A DNA stretch of 64,000 bases from the NCBI GenBank assembly GCA_028753945.1, contig JAPNXP010000006.1, positions 806,001-870,000 on the forward strand, given 5' to 3'. How positions within the stretch are numbered: position 1 is the stretch's first letter; every line of letters begins with the position of its first letter. Below the pieces are notes generated by a model, which did no database searches, was not told the DNA's origin, and saw only the letters and a list, made by a program, of their open reading frames with translations. Shown piece after piece: positions 2,533-57,832 of this stretch. The position numbers were made by a program, and so were the translations under genes. The DNA comes from Hexactinellida sp. DTS-2022. Its lineage: Eukaryota > Porifera > Hexactinellida.

Positions 2533-2620
2533 GGCTGCGAAGCGGCCGTTAATTGTATTACGTAGTGTCTAAAACGAACGAACAAAGGTCGCGAAGCGAC
2601 CGAGACCGAAGGGCTCTTAT
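2533..2620 (+). repeat. Hairpin-rich repeat block (copy 1)
   Basis: Contains GGCTGCGAAGCGGCC (2533-2547, six pairs with one G-T, loop GAA) and GGTCGCGAAGCGACC (2587-2601, six pairs, loop GAA). It ends CGAGACCGAAGGGCTC. The same text recurs at 9195 and 47996. Read as the end of a mobile element of Helitron-like character; this classification is inference. Confidence 0.65.
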
Positions 2621-2664
2621 TTATTAGATTATGTGAACAGAGAACATTGTTTGAAATCAAACAT

Positions 2665-3720
2665 CTATCTGTATATTAAAAGAGGAATTGTTGTGTGTTT
2701 GTGTGTGTTTGTGTTTGTGTTTGTTTGTGTTTGTTTGTGTTTGTTTGTGTTTGTTTGTGTTTGTGTGTGTGTTTGTCCAGAATTAATAGGAAAGACTACG
2801 AGTCCTAGAAAGCTGAAAATTGGCATGCAGGGGTAACTTTGTACTGCGACAACGATCTATTGGTTTTCTAAGCGAAATAACAGGATTATGACGTCACGTT
2901 TGCATAAAACAGATATTTTGTACTAGCTTCCCAATTTTGCTCCACGTACACTAAATTTCTACACCTGATAGCAGTTCACGAATTCCCATTTTACTTCTGA
3001 TTGTGACACAGTTAATTAATTAGTCCCTGCACTAATCAACCATAAATAGTGTATCGTACCAACACAGGTATAGCAAAGTGCAAGTGTGTGTTTGTGTGTG
3101 TGTTTGTCCAGAATTAATAGGAAAGACTACGAGTCCTAGAAAGCTGAAAATTGGCATACAGGGGTAACTTTGTACTGCGACAACGATCTATTGGTTTTCT
3201 AAGCGAAATAACGGGATTATGACGTCATAAACGCACATATTTGGGGATAACTCATTCAGTTTTTATTCGATTCTCCCACAATTTTCGATAATAACACAAC
3301 ATGCAATGAGACACACGTATACCAATTTATGGGAATGTGACGTCACGTAGGAACTAATTTGGATTCAGCTCTTACATTTTTGGTTCAATCGACAAATAAT
3401 TTTGTCACATTATAAAACAGAATGTATTGCATATCTCTAGAAATTTTTATAATTTTCGCACTTAATCTGCGCCAGGCAATAACAAAAATGTAACCTCCTA
3501 TTGCTGCATCATTGCACATATTGAGGTTTGATGATTTAATCTTCACCTACATTATTTCCGAAATTACATACTTGATTAATCATAATAATAATTGGCCTAC
3601 GACGGGCCTGCCCTGTATGCCAATTTTCAGCTTTCTAGGACTCGTAGTCTTTCCTATTAATTCTGGACAAACACACACACAAACACACAACAATTGCGCT
3701 TTTAATATACAGATAGATTA
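2665..3720. mobile_element. About 1.06 kb element with long terminal inverted repeats and TG-rich microsatellite
   Basis: The left end reads ATCTATCTGTATATTAAAAG, then GAATTGTTGTGTG, a long (TTTG/TG)n tract and TTTGTCCAGAATTAATAGG. The right end (3610-3720) is its reverse complement, ending CTTTTAATATACAGATAGAT. An internal partial copy of the left end repeats at about 3085-3230. No transposase is visible. It interrupts the 3' flank of the first NHL gene, whose paralogue's flank (6398-6440) preserves the text just left of the insertion. Confidence 0.75.
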
Positions 3721-3764
3721 GAGCAATGCATTAACTAAGCACAGTAGATAAGCAGAAATAGCAG

Positions 3765-5018
3765 TTAAGCAGTAAATATTTGGAGACCGAAGTTGTGGTT
3801 TTGAGAGACACGAACTAATTTAGTGTTGTTGAGGATAGCAATGCCACAAGGGAAGTTAAACATTCCAAGTTGATGTCCAGCTTGTTGAACTTTATGTCCT
3901 ATCGTGTGTATGAGGTCTCCTGCTGGAGAGAATACCTTGATAGCAGAGTGGTCGCTGATGACAATATTATTGCGTCCGTCTAAACAGAAGAACCATCCTC
4001 CTGAAACTTCCATTCCTATTCCTCCTCTGGTAACTATGGAGCGATTCTTCTCTCCTGATAGTGTAAACACGTGAACACAGGGATTGTCTTCACGGCTTAA
4101 CACAAACATTTCTTCATTTGTGAATTTAACATCGACAGGTCTTGTCATTGTTTTATGTCGTAGCGATCGTTGGAAATCTAGTTCTGTAGACATGATTTGA
4201 ATTCTGTTGTTGTCTGTGTCTGGCACGTAGAGGCGTTGGTTTGGAGAGATAGCGAGTTGTTTCGGAATATTGAATTCTTGCTTTCCAGATCCTTTCTTCC
4301 CTACTCGCTTTACCATTGTGAGATCTGACAGCTTGAATTGGAATATAGCGTGGTGTCCTATGTCCGTAACAAATATGCTGTCTTGGTAGGATAATATGCC
4401 CCATGGCTTGTACAGGTATTGATTCCCGAATTGATTGAGACATTCTCCTGTTTCAGAGAATATTTGGATTCGGCTGTTGACTGTATCTGCCACATAAATG
4501 TGTCCAGATGTTTGTTCGATGGTAACACCTCTTGGCCAGTTTAACTCTCCAGGAGCTGATCCTTGTTTCCCAACAGCAACACTGGGCTGTAGGAATGCAG
4601 CGTAGTCAGGCACTGCTGGAGGAATGTCGATCTGTGCAATCTCTCCCAGACGGGAGATGTGTCCCTCTAGGTCCCGTGTGTCGCACAGGAAGTTCAGGTC
4701 TTGAGGAGGCGGGGCATTGGCTTGCATTTCAGCTCGCGTAGCTTCTAACTCTGCCATTATTCTCTCCTGCATGGATTGGAGCTTATTGTGCATTAGTTGG
4801 CCTTCCAAAAGCGCGCGTGTTTCTGTTATTTGTAGCTCGACTTGTTGTCGCGCCACCCGATTGGCTCTCATTTCCTCTCGGCTGTCCCTTAAGTCGGTCA
4901 ACAGCTGGAATCTTCTCTGCTCGAGAGAGCGTATCAACCTGTCTATCGATTGGTTTATTTGTGTCGATATTGGGTCTACGAGTGGCACTGGTATGGGTTC
5001 TGGAAACTGTGTCGCCAT
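3765..5018 (-). CDS. NHL-repeat propeller protein with N-terminal coiled coil (copy 1)
   Basis: An intact single-exon frame of 417 aa starting at ATG (MATQFPEPIP). Residues about 20-105 are rich in heptad-like Q/E/R/L and should form a coiled coil. From about residue 150, repeated blocks of the form GELNWPRGVTIEQTSGHIYV and NSRIQIFS are NHL repeats of a six-bladed beta-propeller. The order resembles the C-terminal half of TRIM2/3/71-type proteins, but no RING or B-box precedes it. NHL propellers bind protein or RNA; the ligand here is unknown. A near-identical paralogue lies 1.5 kb downstream on the same strand, and a diverged one at 16129. No signal peptide is seen. Role cannot be deduced. 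Confidence 0.85.
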   Translation of the reverse strand: MATQFPEPIPVPLVDPISTQINQSIDRLIRSLEQRRFQLLTDLRDSREEMRANRVARQQVELQITETRALLEGQLMHNKLQSMQERIMAELEATRAEMQANAPPPQDLNFLCDTRDLEGHISRLGEIAQIDIPPAVPDYAAFLQPSVAVGKQGSAPGELNWPRGVTIEQTSGHIYVADTVNSRIQIFSETGECLNQFGNQYLYKPWGILSYQDSIFVTDIGHHAIFQFKLSDLTMVKRVGKKGSGKQEFNIPKQLAISPNQRLYVPDTDNNRIQIMSTELDFQRSLRHKTMTRPVDVKFTNEEMFVLSREDNPCVHVFTLSGEKNRSIVTRGGIGMEVSGGWFFCLDGRNNIVISDHSAIKVFSPAGDLIHTIGHKVQQAGHQLGMFNFPCGIAILNNTKLVRVSQNHNFGLQIFTA

Positions 5019-5101: not shown

Positions 5102-5638
5102 CTGAACTGGAAAGTTAGATAGTTTTTCTGTGGTTGCTATCTGCAATAATTACTAGAATTATGTCTGTCGTATACACTATATTATGGTTTGTATCGATTA
5201 CAACTTTCATTAGTGATCATCATACGATTATCCAATATTTCATAGTTAACATTATTACTATTTACAATTGTTGATCAAGATACGATTCTCGCTTAATTCA
5301 TACACTTGTGCTCATTTTGGAGACCAAATTTGTGACTGTACTACATAAGCAATCAAGACACACAACTATTTACCATTATTTACACACTCATTACAATAAC
5401 ATAACACTGCATCCTATCTATTTTAACAATCACACATTCTATATGCAAGGAGATCTCTTGTTTATTGAGGATGACCTATGTACCATCCTATTAGCCCCCT
5501 GTATATCCCCTTTCTCCCTTATTCCCTTTAACCCGCGCCTCCCCCTTGTCCCCACTGGTCCGTATCCCCAGGCAACCCACGGGACCGTCCATCCCAGTCT
5601 CACCGATATCAGCTGTAAGGACACTAATTGCTACAACA
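5102..5638. other. Intergenic sequence between the NHL copies
   Basis: Upstream of NHL copy 1. About 5500-5640 is richer in C and G than its surroundings (runs of cccc) and has an open frame, but there is no family resemblance and no codon bias I can recognise. It presumably includes the copy 1 promoter. Confidence 0.4.
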
Positions 5639-5945
5639 CAGTGGTCTCAGCGTGGGTCACCCGATCTATTACGGTCAATGCAAGCAGTGTATTATACAGC
5701 CATTTGTAAATACGCTCCTAATCCTGGTCTTATCCAATTTTCATATGCCTAAATAACAAATTAATGTTACGGTATAGGAGAGAATTCCAAATTTTCGCAC
5801 TCCTAAATTCTAATTTTCCAAAATCATACTCCAAAAGGAGCGTCTCGAGCTCCTGGATAATTCCTTGAATGCAAGGGAGTCCATTGAATGCATAATATTA
5901 CTATAGGGGTGGGATCTACAGATGAAAAAAAGTTGGAAATCGCTG
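5639..5945. mobile_element. Possible hAT-like non-autonomous element
   Basis: The left end CAGTGGTCTCAGCGTGGGTC and the right end AAAAAAGTTGGAAATCGCTG match the ends of the clearer hAT-like copy at 21837-21941. The flanking 8-mers (CTACAACA and CTATACAT) do not match well, so this is either an old or a composite copy. Confidence 0.4.
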
Positions 5946-6540: not shown

Positions 6541-7788
6541 TTAAGCAGTAAATATTTGGAGACCGAAGTTTTGGTTTTGAGAGACACAAACTAATTTAGT
6601 GTTGTTGAGGATAGCAATGCCACAAGGGAAGTAAAACATTCCATCTTGTTGTCCTTTCCGTCCTACCGTGTGTAGGAGGTCTCCTGCTGGAGAGAATATC
6701 TTGATAGCGTAAGCATAGCAGTCGCTGATGACAATATTATTGAGTCCGTCTAAACAGAAGAACCATGCTTCCTTAATTTGCATTCCTATTCCTCCTTTGA
6801 TAACTAGGGAGCGGGACTTCTCTCCTGATAGTGTAAACACGTGGATACAGGGATTGTCTTGGAAGCTTAACACAAGCATTTCTTTATTTGTGAATTTAAC
6901 ATCAACAGGTCTTGTCATTGTTTGATGTTGTAGCGAGTCTTGGAAAGTTAGTTCTGTAGACAGGATTTGGATTCTGTTGTTGTATTCATCTGGCACGTAG
7001 AGGCGTTGATTGGGAGAGATAGCGAGTTGTCTCGGATGATTGAATTCTTTCTTTCCTGATCCTTTCTTCCCTACTCGCTTTATCATTGTGAGATCTGACA
7101 TCTTGAATAGGAATATAGCAGCATGTCCTATGTCTGTAACAAATATGCTGTCTTTGTAGGTTAATATGCCCCATGGCTGCTTCAGGTGTTGATCTCCGAA
7201 TTGTTTGAGACATTCTCCTGTTTCAGAGAATATTTGGATTCGACTGTTACTTCTATCTGCCAAATAAATGTGTCCCGATGTTTGTTCGATGGTAACACCT
7301 CTTGGCCAGTTTAACTCTCCAGGAGCGCATCCTTGTTTCCCAACAGCAACACTGGGCTGTTGGAATGCTGCGTAGTTAGGCACTGCTGGAGGAATGTCGG
7401 CCTGTAGAATCTCTCCCAGACGGGAGATGTGTCCCTCTAGGTCCCGTGTGTCGCACAGGAAGTTCAGGTCTTTAGGAGGCGGGTAATTGGCTTGCATTTC
7501 AGCTTGCGTAGCTTCTAACTCTGCCATTATTCTCTCCTGCATGTAATGGAGCTTATTGTGCATTAGTTGGCCTTCCAGAAGCGCGCTTGTCTCTGTTATT
7601 TGTAGCTCGATTTGTTGTCGCGCCACCCGATTGGCTCTCATTTCCTCCCGTCTGTCCCTTAAGTCGGTCAACAGCTGGACTCTTCTCTGCTCGAGAGAGC
7701 GTATCAATCTGTCTATCGATTGGTTTATTTGTGTCGCTATTGGGTCTACGAGTGGCACTGGTATGGGTTCTGGAAACTGTGTCGCCAT
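6541..7788 (-). CDS. NHL-repeat propeller protein with N-terminal coiled coil (copy 2)
   Basis: An intact single-exon frame of 415 aa starting at ATG (MATQFPEPIP). It is collinear with the gene at 3765-5018, with most residues shared over the whole length: coiled coil at about 20-105, then NHL blocks such as GELNWPRGVTIEQTSGHIYL. Differences are scattered single residues plus small indels near the C-terminus. Both copies end in FGLQIFTA. Similarity extends only a little into the flanks: 3' text around 6398-6440 and 6515-6540 matches the other copy's interrupted flank. It is a recent tandem duplicate, and both frames are open, so both are probably functional. No RING or B-box is present. Confidence 0.85.
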   Translation of the reverse strand: MATQFPEPIPVPLVDPIATQINQSIDRLIRSLEQRRVQLLTDLRDRREEMRANRVARQQIELQITETSALLEGQLMHNKLHYMQERIMAELEATQAEMQANYPPPKDLNFLCDTRDLEGHISRLGEILQADIPPAVPNYAAFQQPSVAVGKQGCAPGELNWPRGVTIEQTSGHIYLADRSNSRIQIFSETGECLKQFGDQHLKQPWGILTYKDSIFVTDIGHAAIFLFKMSDLTMIKRVGKKGSGKKEFNHPRQLAISPNQRLYVPDEYNNRIQILSTELTFQDSLQHQTMTRPVDVKFTNKEMLVLSFQDNPCIHVFTLSGEKSRSLVIKGGIGMQIKEAWFFCLDGLNNIVISDCYAYAIKIFSPAGDLLHTVGRKGQQDGMFYFPCGIAILNNTKLVCVSQNQNFGLQIFTA

Positions 7789-16128: not shown

Positions 16129-17310
16129 ATGGCAACTGCAATCGACAGTTATTCCTCTCAATTCGAATCAATTCGTTCTAAAATCCACGTTTCCATAGAA
16201 TCAGCAATAAAGTTGCTTCGAGAAAAAGAGTCTTCCCTCATTAACCAACTTGAGGCACTACAGAGCGAGTATTCCACTCGAACAGCTGATCCACAAATAG
16301 CATTACAGCTTTCTGATGAGATTGTTATACGTGTAAATAACACTGATAAACAAACCGAAATAACCACTATAAACTATGTATTTAACCAACTATTTTATAG
16401 TCAAATTGAAGAAATAGCTAAGCTTGAAATTAGCACTAGAATCGTGTCACAATATTCTGCAAACAAACACATTGTTCCTGACTACACAACAAAGATTCTC
16501 CCAGTCATTAGTTGTTTTAAGAAAAATGTTACAAACGCACCTGTTTTAGGAGAATTCAAAACTCCTTGGGGTCTCGCCATAGAACCTAATTCTGGGAATA
16601 TTTACATTAGCGATAGGAGCCACTATTGTGTGCAAGTGTTTAATCACAATTGTAAGTTTCTATACAAATTCTCCCAGGATATGGGAGGGCCAGTTGGCAT
16701 GTGTTTTTCGCGGAATAGAATTATAATTTCGCAGTGGGGGAAGAACTATGTTACATCGCACGACTTGAATGGTCTGTTGTTAAAGAAAGTTGGGAAAAAG
16801 GGAAATGGCGAATTGGAATTCAACTCGCCATGGGGAATAGCTGCTAGTGATATAACCGGGAATTTGTATGTTTGCGAGAGAGAAAATAACAGAGTACAGA
16901 TTCTAACTGAGAGTTTAGATTTCAATTCATTCTTAGGAGAAGGCATATTCCAGGAACCTCGTGACGTTAAACTAACCAATAACGAGGTCTACATTCTAGA
17001 TACCCGTAACCCGTGTTTGCATGTGTTCGATCAGAGAGAGCATACATTGGTTAGAAGCTTCATTTCTTTAGGCATAGGGGCACTAGTGAGTAATCCTTAC
17101 TTCTTTGCTATTGATACTGAGAGTAGTATTATTATCAGTGACGCTGGGAACCGTTGTATTAGTATTATTTCGAATTCAGGGGTGATAGTACATAGAATCG
17201 GAGAGTCTATTGAGGAAGTGTTAGCTGAGGTTATGGCCGTTGCTATAGATACCGATGGAATGATATTTAGTGTGAGCGGGAATAGCAAAGGAATACTGAA
17301 TGTATTTTGA
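16129..17310 (+). CDS. NHL-repeat propeller protein, diverged paralogue
   Basis: An intact 393-aa frame starting at ATG (MATAIDSYSSQF). It has the same layout as the two tandem NHL genes: a helical N-terminal third (about residues 10-115), then NHL blocks such as GEFKTPWGLAIEPNSGNIYI, KVGKKGNGELEFNSPWGIA and NNRVQILTESLDF. The shared KR/KKVGKKG-G--EFN segment ties it to the 3765 and 6541 proteins, but overall identity is clearly lower. No RING or B-box is seen. A TTTTTATAG just before the start could be a splice acceptor, so an upstream exon is possible. Function unknown beyond a ligand-binding propeller. Confidence 0.82.
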   Translation: MATAIDSYSSQFESIRSKIHVSIESAIKLLREKESSLINQLEALQSEYSTRTADPQIALQLSDEIVIRVNNTDKQTEITTINYVFNQLFYSQIEEIAKLEISTRIVSQYSANKHIVPDYTTKILPVISCFKKNVTNAPVLGEFKTPWGLAIEPNSGNIYISDRSHYCVQVFNHNCKFLYKFSQDMGGPVGMCFSRNRIIISQWGKNYVTSHDLNGLLLKKVGKKGNGELEFNSPWGIAASDITGNLYVCERENNRVQILTESLDFNSFLGEGIFQEPRDVKLTNNEVYILDTRNPCLHVFDQREHTLVRSFISLGIGALVSNPYFFAIDTESSIIISDAGNRCISIISNSGVIVHRIGESIEEVLAEVMAVAIDTDGMIFSVSGNSKGILNVF

Positions 17311-54147: not shown

Positions 54148-56838
54148 ATGGCAGTGAATTTATCTGATGGGTTAACAAGCGACAAACTGATGGAAAACAA
54201 CTACAAATCATTAAATAGTGAAATACAGGATTTTGAGTTCAGTGACTTGCACACCAGAAACGGAACAAAAAAGGAGAGTGTGTATGAGAAAGCATTAAAA
54301 AAACTGGATTGGGAGAAGTTAATTGAGTTGATTGAGTTGGGAGCTGATTACACACAGGGTTTGCAGATACAAAAAGACAAAGATCGAACAACAGCATTAT
54401 ACTATGGGGCGTTCTACTACAGAAATGACTTGGTTAAGCTGATTACACAAAAACATAGAGAAATAGGAAAATACTCATCTACATTCGTTAACCAATGTAC
54501 AGTGGCACTCAGGGCAGTTTGTATTAATAATAATTCCGAATTGGTTGATATACTCGTGGAAGCGGGAGCGGTAATAGCAGAGGAATATCACATTCATACA
54601 GCTGTACACCATGGCAGTTGGACTGTACTTAAAGAGCTGAAGAAGTTCTACCAGAACTTAGATTTGAATATAGCTGACGATTCAAACAATACACCGTTAT
54701 ACTACGCGAGCAAAAACGGACATTTACAGCTGATTAACTGGCTATTAAGTAACGGAGCGAAAGTTAATTTGAAAAACTCACAAGGAGATACGGCACTTCA
54801 TATCGCCTGTCTCTACGCAGACGAAGATTCAGTGCATTTGCTTATCAAAAGAGGAGCAAATATAGATGCAGCAAATGGCAAAGGAGAAACACCTGTGTTA
54901 ATAGCCGCCAGACATGGGAGGGAAGGTCTCATTGTTATTTTAGCGAGCGAGAAAGCTAACTTAGACAAAAGAGATGAGCATGGTAATTTCCCACTACAAC
55001 TTGCTTGCGAAAATGGTCACATAGGTGTGATTAAAGAACTGATCTCAAATGGAGCTAACTTCAAAGTGGTCGATGGGAACAGGTCTAGCTTTCTGGAAAA
55101 AGCGATTTTAAGCAGGAGAGATGGGACAGCCGCGATATGTGTGCGTTTATTCCCAAGTGAAGACTTTCTAGCGGAATACACGTCATATTTCGCGATTCCA
55201 GTAATCGACCTAGCCAAGTTTGGAATGATAGAAACATTGAATGCACTGTTAGATCGCATGGTGGTAGTAGGGTCTGAGAAAAAGGATGGAAAAGATGAGA
55301 TAAACATCAAAGGCAAGGTCCTCACAAAATATCTCGATTTGGATAGCGAGAATCGTATGCCTGATGACATTGAATATAAAATGAATCAAACGTACTTGTT
55401 ACAGCGAATTTGCCAACTTGACAATGAAAAATTAGCGTATCATGGCACAATAAGGATACTAGTTGATAGGAAAATGAAAACATTTGGGTATAATATTTTA
55501 GCGGTAAAACTACTGTTTCATATTTGTTTTCTGTTGACACTTGGTTACTCATTGATTCAAGCGTCGTATCAAAGTATTCCTAGAGATGCATATACACTGA
55601 ATTTCGCGAATGGATTTAGGATACTGACAGAGATTCTAACACTCATATATTTTATAGCCAACGTAATTACAGAGGGAGTGGAGTTCTTTCGCGTGACTCG
55701 ACTAACGCACCATCATGTTAAAGGGAAAAAGCTGGAGAAAATAAATGGAATAGATCGCAAACAAAATCATTCACAACACGAATCTAAATGGCAGAAATTA
55801 AAATGCTTCATGAACAAGTTGAAGAACAAAACCTTCATCAGAATGTTCTCAGATTATTTCAGTGATAAATCTAACTACTTGGACGTACTGGGTTTGCTAA
55901 CACTCTTTATTCTGTTTATACTGCGTCTATTAAGTCAGCCAATTCAATGGGTTTTCGCCGCTGCAACATTCTTTATTAACGCTTTGCGTTTATTTAAGTT
56001 AACTGTACTCATTCCAGTCCTGGGGCCCTATTCCACCATCATATACAAAGTGTTGAAAAACGATGTTCCAAAATTCGCAGCTCTATTCATCATCACACTG
56101 TTCACCTTTACAGGTACGTTCTTCATAGCACTACGAGCTCCATACACGGTAGAGGGGCTACTGAATGCATCTTTGAAACAGGATACTTATCGGGCACCAG
56201 GAATAGATGATGAGGTATGGTGGGTTCTAATATCTGGACTGAGGATACTGGTGCAAGGAAATGTGTTTGAAGGGATTTACACTAATTATATATATGAATC
56301 TCTGAATTGGTTGGCCGCAACAGTCTACCTAACCTTCCTATTCTTAACAGTCATTGTCTATATTAATGTATTCATTGCGCAACTCACAGACACATTTTCA
56401 AAATTCAAACTGAGAGCTGACTACAGTTTCGCATGGCACAGGCTGAATTTCATTGTCCAAGTACAGAGAACTTCTTTCCTATCAATTTTCATGGACATAA
56501 GGAAAAAGTACTTTACAGAATCTATTTCGATGGATAAAGACAAGTTGAATGAGTACTATAACGTATACGACATCCGACATTTGAATGTTAGGAGTTTCAA
56601 TGAGAATGTAGATGTGAAGAATATGCTTAGCAGCATACAATCACAACAAAGGACAAGCGAGAAAATAAAGAATGCAATGGAACAATCTCGATTTGAAACT
56701 GAGGATACAAGGTTGGAGCAAAAGGTGAATTTAATTAAGGAAGAAATGGAAAAAAGGTTTGATTTAATTGATAAACGTATGGATCAAATGTTCCAGATGT
56801 TAAAAGCTAACTTAAATCGGTCCCAAGATGTTGATTAA
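54148..56838 (+). CDS. Ankyrin-repeat TRP-type cation channel, intronless
   Basis: An intact 896-aa single-exon frame from ATG (MAVNLSDG). Ankyrin repeats occupy about residues 50-320, with clear units such as NNTPLYYASKNGHLQLINWL, GDTALHIACLYADEDSVHLL and NFPLQLACENGHIGVIKELI. Six hydrophobic segments follow at about 445-470, 489-513, 577-597, 601-628, 646-668 and 718-750. A pore-loop-like segment, DEVWWVLISGLRILVQGN, lies between the last two. S6 is followed by FSKFKLRADYSFAW and a C-terminal coiled coil (about 835-890, LEQKVNLIKEEMEKRFDLI). This order (ankyrins, six helices, pore before S6, coiled coil) is that of TRPA-like channels, though there are fewer ankyrins than in TRPA1. It is a plasma-membrane cation channel; the stimulus cannot be predicted. 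Lack of introns contrasts with vertebrate TRPA1. Confidence 0.87.
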   Translation: MAVNLSDGLTSDKLMENNYKSLNSEIQDFEFSDLHTRNGTKKESVYEKALKKLDWEKLIELIELGADYTQGLQIQKDKDRTTALYYGAFYYRNDLVKLITQKHREIGKYSSTFVNQCTVALRAVCINNNSELVDILVEAGAVIAEEYHIHTAVHHGSWTVLKELKKFYQNLDLNIADDSNNTPLYYASKNGHLQLINWLLSNGAKVNLKNSQGDTALHIACLYADEDSVHLLIKRGANIDAANGKGETPVLIAARHGREGLIVILASEKANLDKRDEHGNFPLQLACENGHIGVIKELISNGANFKVVDGNRSSFLEKAILSRRDGTAAICVRLFPSEDFLAEYTSYFAIPVIDLAKFGMIETLNALLDRMVVVGSEKKDGKDEINIKGKVLTKYLDLDSENRMPDDIEYKMNQTYLLQRICQLDNEKLAYHGTIRILVDRKMKTFGYNILAVKLLFHICFLLTLGYSLIQASYQSIPRDAYTLNFANGFRILTEILTLIYFIANVITEGVEFFRVTRLTHHHVKGKKLEKINGIDRKQNHSQHESKWQKLKCFMNKLKNKTFIRMFSDYFSDKSNYLDVLGLLTLFILFILRLLSQPIQWVFAAATFFINALRLFKLTVLIPVLGPYSTIIYKVLKNDVPKFAALFIITLFTFTGTFFIALRAPYTVEGLLNASLKQDTYRAPGIDDEVWWVLISGLRILVQGNVFEGIYTNYIYESLNWLAATVYLTFLFLTVIVYINVFIAQLTDTFSKFKLRADYSFAWHRLNFIVQVQRTSFLSIFMDIRKKYFTESISMDKDKLNEYYNVYDIRHLNVRSFNENVDVKNMLSSIQSQQRTSEKIKNAMEQSRFETEDTRLEQKVNLIKEEMEKRFDLIDKRMDQMFQMLKANLNRSQDVD

Positions 56839-56866: not shown

Positions 56867-56872
56867 TTTATT
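56867..56872 (-). other. Likely polyadenylation signal of the selenoprotein U gene
   Basis: AATAAA on the - strand, about 320 bases past the stop codon at 57194 and 220 bases beyond the SECIS. It lies only 29 bases past the stop of the convergent TRP channel gene, so the two 3' ends probably overlap. Confidence 0.45.
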
Positions 56873-57088
56873 GGATTTAGTGTATATGTGATAAATTTGG
56901 TAAACTCGTGTGGAAATATAAATTGTGATGATTTTTTTGTAAAAACTTATGTAACGCTTCCAATGGGAGGAAGTAGCTACTAACATAAGACGGACCATCC
57001 TTTGTATGAAAGACTCCATATAAATTGCAGATTGAAATTGAAAGATGGTACCAATTACCAAAAGTATTATTGAACAGAACAAATACAT

Positions 57089-57162
57089 AGTGTCATCATC
57101 ATAAGATCAAATATTGAATTTCAAAAGATTTTAACAATATCATCATAAAGAGATGTGACACT
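57089..57162 (-). promoter_or_regulatory. SECIS element in the 3' untranslated region of selenoprotein U
   Basis: On the - strand, 32 bases after the stop codon. Lower helix: AGTGTCA pairs with TGACACT, and CATC with GATG across one bulged A. An internal loop follows, then ATGA (57143-57146) opposite TGAT (57106-57109), the non-Watson-Crick quartet that defines SECIS. Upper helix: GATATTG pairs with CAATATT (one G-U). An AAAA run (57129-57132) lies ten bases after the ATGA, where the conserved apical adenines belong. The upper helix is shorter than usual, and the apical part could form an extra AAAA/TTTT pairing. This directs UGA recoding through SBP2. Confidence 0.82.
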
Positions 57163-57193
57163 TAAACAAATACAATAAAATTTCGATATAGTA

Positions 57194-57832
57194 TTAAAGT
57201 TGTTCCAACGATTCTCGTAACACATCCAGTGGACACGTGTCTCCTATTTCTGTAGCTCTGCATTCCAATACAACTTTATCTTTCTGTATAACATACAAAG
57301 CACCTAACAATCTGCCCTCGCCTTCTGTGTTACCACTGAATCCGTCTTTCCAAGCGTTATAGGAACTGATCCAATTTCCCAGTTTAAAAAACTCCCCAAA
57401 TCCAATCCATCTCTCTTCAGGTCCATAAAATGTCCTAGCGCTGTCGAGAAAAACATCAGCTTCAAGAAATTCCTCAAATTCCCTAGCACCTAACTCGTCG
57501 TGAACAACTCCATATAACTTAACATTGTAGCGATAAGTTAAGGAAGCAATCTTAGTTGCTTCCGCTTTACACAGGAATCATCCTGGTCTCCGAATAGCGA
57601 GCAACACAACCGGGCTATCTATCCACAGTTGATTTGCTTTGAATTCCTTTCCCGTATCTAAAGTTTTCAATGTAGCTCTATTGAAATATTCAAGTAAATT
57701 CCTAGTATGCGAAATTTGTTGGCGTGCATTGTACTTCAGTAGTAGATTAACAGAAAAAGCGAATAGAGCGAATGACGCAGTAGAAATAACACATTTGTGT
57801 AAGATAGAAAGCCGTTTCCATTTAAGAGGCAT
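57194..57832 (-). CDS. SELENOU: Selenoprotein U (peroxiredoxin-like 2A), Sec at an in-frame UGA
   Basis: From ATG at 57832 to TAA at 57194 is 213 codons with one in-frame TGA, codon 85. Read through it gives 212 aa, close to human PRXL2A (229 aa). The site reads LLAIRRPG-U-FLCKAEATKI; human PRXL2A has RRPGCFLCREEA, and fish SelU has selenocysteine there. The UxxC pair (U85, C88) is the redox centre of a thioredoxin-like fold. Downstream family blocks are present: VFLDSARTFYGPEERW, FKLGNWISSYNAW, GFSGNTEGEGRLLGALYV and IGDTCPLDVL. An N-terminal hydrophobic anchor (about residues 13-33) matches PRXL2A. The frame stays coding on both sides of the TGA, and a SECIS follows the stop, so a pseudogene is unlikely. 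No introns. Convergent with the TRP channel gene. Confidence 0.92.
57578..57580 (-). other. In-frame TGA selenocysteine codon
   Basis: Codon 85 of the selenoprotein U gene, between CCA GGA and TTC CTG TGT. It sits exactly at the position of the active-site Cys/Sec of the family. Confidence 0.9.

Follow-up and report, generated by a model that had tools for sequence, protein, structure and literature searches.

The reverse strand of the window (the whole 64-kb stretch of DNA that was analysed, on contig C15 of a glass sponge genome) carries what is very probably, judging by its sequence, a working selenoprotein U (SelU) gene in which the UGA at codon 85 is read as selenocysteine (Sec). The locus combines a thioredoxin-like reading frame, a TGA at the redox site of that frame and a SECIS-like element, and the same genome holds paralogues with TGA and the genes of the Sec pathway. 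The window gene is a clean example of a selenoprotein gene that routine ORF calling cuts at 84 aa, and its host animal has retained the Sec pathway and has TGA in each of the PRXL2-family genes found.

The SelU coding frame

The coding sequence occupies 57194..57832 (−) and consists of 212 codons followed by TAA, in one exon as read. An earlier note on this DNA had claimed that a TGA in the context RRPG-U-FLC was the only interruption of the frame, and this is borne out, as the TGA at codon 85 (57578..57580, −; putative selenocysteine U85) is the sole in-frame stop ahead of the TAA in the 212-aa translation of 57832-57194 (−). The same note had expected gene prediction to yield an 84-aa product, and mechanical ORF calling (minimum 50 aa) indeed returns an 84-aa ORF alone in the SelU frame. 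Codon 88 (57569..57571, −) encodes Cys and, by its column in a seven-row alignment of PRXL2-family proteins, is the second residue of a U-x-x-C redox motif.

The protein belongs to the Pfam family AhpC-TSA_2 (PF13911), scoring 32.6 bits against a curated cut-off of 27, and its TGA stands where the xxxC redox motif of this family begins with Sec or Cys. A thioredoxin-like PRXL2 domain spans residues 54–203 (57224..57673, −), as defined by a phmmer match to PDB entry 9us9 (E 4e-8), a prostamide/prostaglandin F synthase that is the closest solved structure by sequence. Codon 85 aligns with a Cys of 9us9, which is Ser in entry 9usa; the synthase is a Cys enzyme with CxxC where the window protein has U-x-x-C. 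Residues 14–32 (57737..57793, −) are hydrophobic, with a Kyte-Doolittle mean of 1.99 over 19 residues, and form a possible signal anchor. The RRPG-x-FLC motif and the architecture, including this N-terminal hydrophobic segment, resemble those of PRXL2A (SelU1), which makes the gene a candidate member of that subfamily.

PRXL2-family genes elsewhere in the genome

The genome searched comprises 18 contigs (112.4 Mb), and a search of it with PF13911 found eight places, seven of which are PRXL2-family genes; the eighth, on contig C1, encodes a peroxiredoxin-type protein with Cys and lies below the cut-off. All seven PRXL2-family genes found, that is six besides the window gene, have TGA at the alignment column of the window TGA (the alignment rows show C where TGA or U stands, by a convention of the aligner). 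In the codon-88 column, every one of the seven rows has Cys, or a TGA written as C, and TGA stands there in four SelL-like genes. The genome search worked exon by exon and scored its best candidates only, which means that a family member in Cys form could have escaped. A profile built from the seven members matched 9us9 (E 6.9e-17) and, less strongly, other thioredoxin-fold oxidoreductases.

Two of the seven are SelU-type genes, namely the window gene and a paralogue on contig C8 with the motif RRPG-U-GLC, and both have TGA. They share 35 % identity over 170 aligned positions (E 1e-31) with TGA at the same codon, the identities being 12 of 31 positions before the TGA and 44 of 127 after it. 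When the genome was searched with the window protein, only the protein itself and this paralogue were matched. No relatives of the window protein were found in viral contigs (10 pattern matches), and none of the SelU pair in prokaryotic genome contigs (59 pattern matches).

The remaining five were called SelL-like by motif and alignment, one on contig C4 (UHPU) and four on contig C6 (C6a, ULPU; C6b, UNPU; C6c, UPFU; C6d, UIFC). The C6 genes are clustered in a stretch of about 5 kb, at 6720-7334 (+), 3746-4330 (−), 2581-3159 (−) and 5205-5777 (−) of locus L018 (C6:4871001-4881000), and each has a SECIS-like element 3′ of it, though that of C6b was missed by the pattern scan. Against the SelL-related NCBIfam model NF040769 (cut-off 120), C6a (the one SelL-like gene scanned) scored 114.2 bits and the C8 SelU paralogue 17.8. 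The window gene, at 13.6 bits and with UxxC rather than the UxxU of SelL, is not a SelL gene, though both fall in the same PF13911 superfamily.

The SECIS-like element

The earlier note had described a SECIS-like hairpin 32 bases after the stop, with an ATGA/TGAT quartet, helices on both sides of it and an apical run of A, and all of these were present. The element, in the presumed 3′ UTR, was located by covariance model, fold and pattern scan at 57088..57162 (−), and it starts at 57162, which is 32 bases past the last base of the TAA. The 5′ and 3′ strands of the quartet are ATGA at 57143..57146 (−) and TGAT at 57106..57109 (−), with the apical AAAA at 57129..57132 (−). In the predicted fold, helix II (57141-57135/57116-57110, −) has seven pairs and helix I is formed by 57162-57152/57100-57089 (−). 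An AATAAA at 56867..56872 (−), 3′ of the element, is a possible polyadenylation signal. When the fold was compared with those of 200 dinucleotide shuffles, two were as good or better at the exact limits of the element (z −2.67) and 22 at wider limits (z −1.48).

The Rfam model SECIS_1 gave the window element 20.0 bits, below the gathering score of 35; the element was absent at E≤10 from a larger SECIS_1 scan that included it (L019) and was not among the four hits at E≤1 in a genome-wide search that returned best candidates only, one of the four being over the gathering score. That search also missed the element of C6d. Across the nine SECIS elements studied, the model passes only that of C6c (41.9 bits), those of C6d (34.3), a Sec-containing glutathione peroxidase (GPx; 30.9) and the window gene falling below, and the elements of C6a, C6b, C4, C8 and SPS2 going unreported at E≤10. 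With one of nine over the gathering score, SECIS_1 was rejected as the sole judge, and for the same reason a genome-specific model (R1) was built.

R1 was trained on eight elements that exclude the window's own (those of six PRXL2-family genes, the Sec GPx and SPS2), several of which were chosen by eye from sequence 3′ of the stops. Both sides have changed in nine of the 11 helix II pairs of the training set, and 90.5 % of the cells are paired; among 500 shuffles, 22 reach the pair count, and none attains either the paired fraction or the covariation score. With the window element thus left out, R1 ranked it first in the 64-kb window on both strands (21.7 bits, E 0.16). The sole other match up to E 10, at 42289-42221 (−) with 18.2 bits (E 0.77), is probably due to chance. 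Training members score 47–63 bits, by construction, and two candidates that R1 was not trained on score 35.7 and 29.1; taken alone, the 21.7 bits of the window element are weak evidence.

In a pattern scan with helix II of at least 6 and helix I of at least 5 pairs, five distinct sites were found in the window against 3.27 in shuffled sequence, and six of eight controls passed. With helix II of at least 7 and helix I again of at least 5, no site other than the SECIS-like element remained in the window (1.19 per shuffled window; five of eight controls), and with both helices at 7 the shuffle mean fell to 0.17 but only one of eight controls passed. A loose hit within 400 nt after the stop was recorded for seven of nine Sec genes (C6b and GPx being missed) versus one of ten other genes. 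The quartet starts 26–54 bases after the stop in all nine Sec genes. The hairpin alone is not unique; it is its placement, with the quartet 47 bases after the stop in the window gene, that makes it persuasive. The spacing from the quartet to the first A is 10 bases versus 12–13 in the other eight, and reaches 12 only if the last two bases of AAAA are counted. A SECIS element downstream of the stop, as expected of a selenoprotein gene, is supported here by R1, fold and pattern scan, with Rfam SECIS_1 below its gathering score.

The two candidates outside the training set lie in other parts of the genome. One, L015:1494-1569 (+), has 34.9 bits with Rfam and 35.7 with R1, and lies some 60 nt downstream of a frame that ends in GGG-U-G-stop, presumably similar to the C-terminus of SelS or SelK. 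The other, L017:1493-1569 (−), has 27.0 and 29.1 bits, respectively, and no recognised selenoprotein upstream of it.

Sec machinery, alternative explanations and known relatives

A Sec form of SelU was held in the earlier note to imply a working Sec machinery, and genes for tRNA-Sec, PSTK, SepSecS, SPS2, eEFSec and SBP2 were all found in the genome. The tRNA-Sec scores 75.8 bits (gathering score 47) and has the anticodon tca; the full cloverleaf is not seen in its single-strand fold. SepSecS was found at one place (E 2.8e-126). PSTK matched in two pieces of one 321-aa frame, both below the NCBIfam cut-off, the better one at E 6.6e-29. SPS2 is multi-exon and was recovered as four pieces, none of which reaches the cut-off for the whole protein; one exon includes KGUGC, its own Sec codon, and a SECIS-like element follows the stop. 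The eEFSec is 580 aa long and includes both eukaryote-specific domains (PF21208 and PF21131). The SBP2-like gene is present as two adjoining, very similar copies (L040 and L041, at about 2209653 and 2213273 of contig C8) with equal L7Ae-domain scores, and the copy that was tested matches 7zjw (E 1.8e-32).

With these components, SBP2 would bind the SECIS of the SelU mRNA and eEFSec would bring Sec-tRNA(Sec) to the ribosome, such that UGA 85 would be decoded as Sec and translation would terminate at the TAA. The mature protein, possibly tethered to a membrane by the hydrophobic segment near its N-terminus, would be a thiol/selenol oxidoreductase, with U85 attacking the substrate and C88 then resolving the selenenylsulfide.

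The 84-aa ORF seen under normal reading, and the modest score of the SECIS, are also what would be expected of a pseudogene or null allele in which a former Cys codon had become TGA. However, there is no further stop or frameshift across the 212 codons, conservation persists past the TGA, and the SECIS-like element lies at the distance usual for the Sec genes of this genome. The mutation must also have struck exactly at the column where six other genes have TGA, and we consider this explanation very improbable. That same column bears on an error of sequencing or assembly at the TGA; exclusion of such an error would rest on reads, but it would need to coincide with the TGA in the C8 paralogue and in the SelL-like genes, four on C6 and one on C4, and would not create a SECIS-like element downstream. 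It is the least credible of the alternatives, its likelihood being close to negligible.

In-frame TGA in several genes of one superfamily might instead mean that TGA codes for an amino acid throughout the genome, or that it is generally read through without Sec. The genome search translates through stops and counts them, yet there is no TGA in the matches to SepSecS (1), SelB-like GTPases (23), L7Ae-like proteins (7) or PSTK (3), and one NHL-repeat-like gene terminates in TGA. Seven ORFs lack internal TGA by construction, having been picked for being open with table 11. Within the PRXL2-family frames that were read, TGA is confined to redox-motif positions, and the presence of Sec-specific machinery likewise argues against reassignment, which we regard as scarcely more probable than an assembly error. 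All three are poor alternatives to a working selenoprotein gene.

The three SelU proteins, SelU1–3, are also named PRXL2A/B/C, FAM213A/B and AAED1. PAMM/adiporedoxin is mammalian PRXL2A, and the motif of human PRXL2A is numbered Cys85/Cys88. By description, PAMM/adiporedoxin, a redox regulator dependent on CXXC (PMC5150245), resembles the window protein with Cys in place of Sec. In common with SelU, the window gene encodes a Prx-like2 thioredoxin-type protein with a putative Sec in its redox motif, and its stop is followed by a SECIS-like element; the SelU of human and mouse are Cys forms, whereas both SelU-type genes found here have TGA.

Among SelU selenoproteins tabulated for other animals, there are four in Amphimedon, three in Trichoplax and one each in Nematostella, Lottia, Capitella and Branchiostoma (PMC3473315). 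The same source reports selenoproteins of both kinds, SelU and SelL, from sponge, placozoan and further invertebrates, with one SelL in Amphimedon, and UxxU proteins within a Prx-like family are mentioned elsewhere (PMC2398784). Since SelU and SelL with Sec have been published before for sponges and other invertebrates, the window gene is an addition to a known family. The earlier note had further concluded that the Cys form of mammals is derived. For SelU1 this is supported by evidence from other species (PMC2397514, PMC3316567, PMC3473315), the first two of these describing a later Sec-to-Cys change in mammalian SelU1, but a single genome is insufficient to establish it and such a change is doubted for SelU2 and SelU3 (PMC3316567). 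The genome adds a data point for Sec-form SelU and SelL being old in animals and converted or lost later, and leaves the published picture unchanged.

A literature search for hexactinellid selenoproteins found no publication, though one paper on a calcareous sponge came up, and the word 'selenoprotein' is absent from the main texts of two glass sponge genome papers (PMC10282587, PMC10280926). What may be new is the glass sponge host together with seven Sec-form PRXL2 genes and their four-gene SelL cluster. The fuller combination of a glass sponge with PRXL2 genes that are all Sec-form (two SelU and five SelL-like, with a four-gene UxxU/UxxC cluster) and a tandem SBP2 is put forward tentatively, with a little less than even confidence.

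The genome is compact, and many of the genes encountered in it read as one exon each, with SPS2 as an exception. The glass sponge Aphrocallistes vastus is described as having an 80-Mb genome, thought to comprise 10–12 chromosomes, with many single-exon genes and without Wnts (PMC10282587), and Oopsacas minuta as having a compact genome without Wnt and 1.59 introns per gene, similar to or only slightly below demosponges (PMC10280926), so that a low intron number does not set glass sponges apart. The 10–12 chromosomes of A. vastus compare with 18 contigs here. A Wnt search of the present genome gave no match, which is consistent with a glass sponge, and no control genome gave one either.

The GC content of the window is 29–41 %. 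It includes three single-exon genes labelled by look as NHL-repeat-like (3765-5018 and 6541-7788, −; 16129-17310, +), two of which are close duplicates. An ankyrin/TRP-like channel gene, also labelled by look and of a single exon, lies at 54148-56838 (+), tail to tail with SelU. A weak SECIS-like pattern match at 56888-56929 (+), 49 nt past the stop of the TRP-like gene, is the single false positive among the ten other genes in the loose scan and is probably due to chance.
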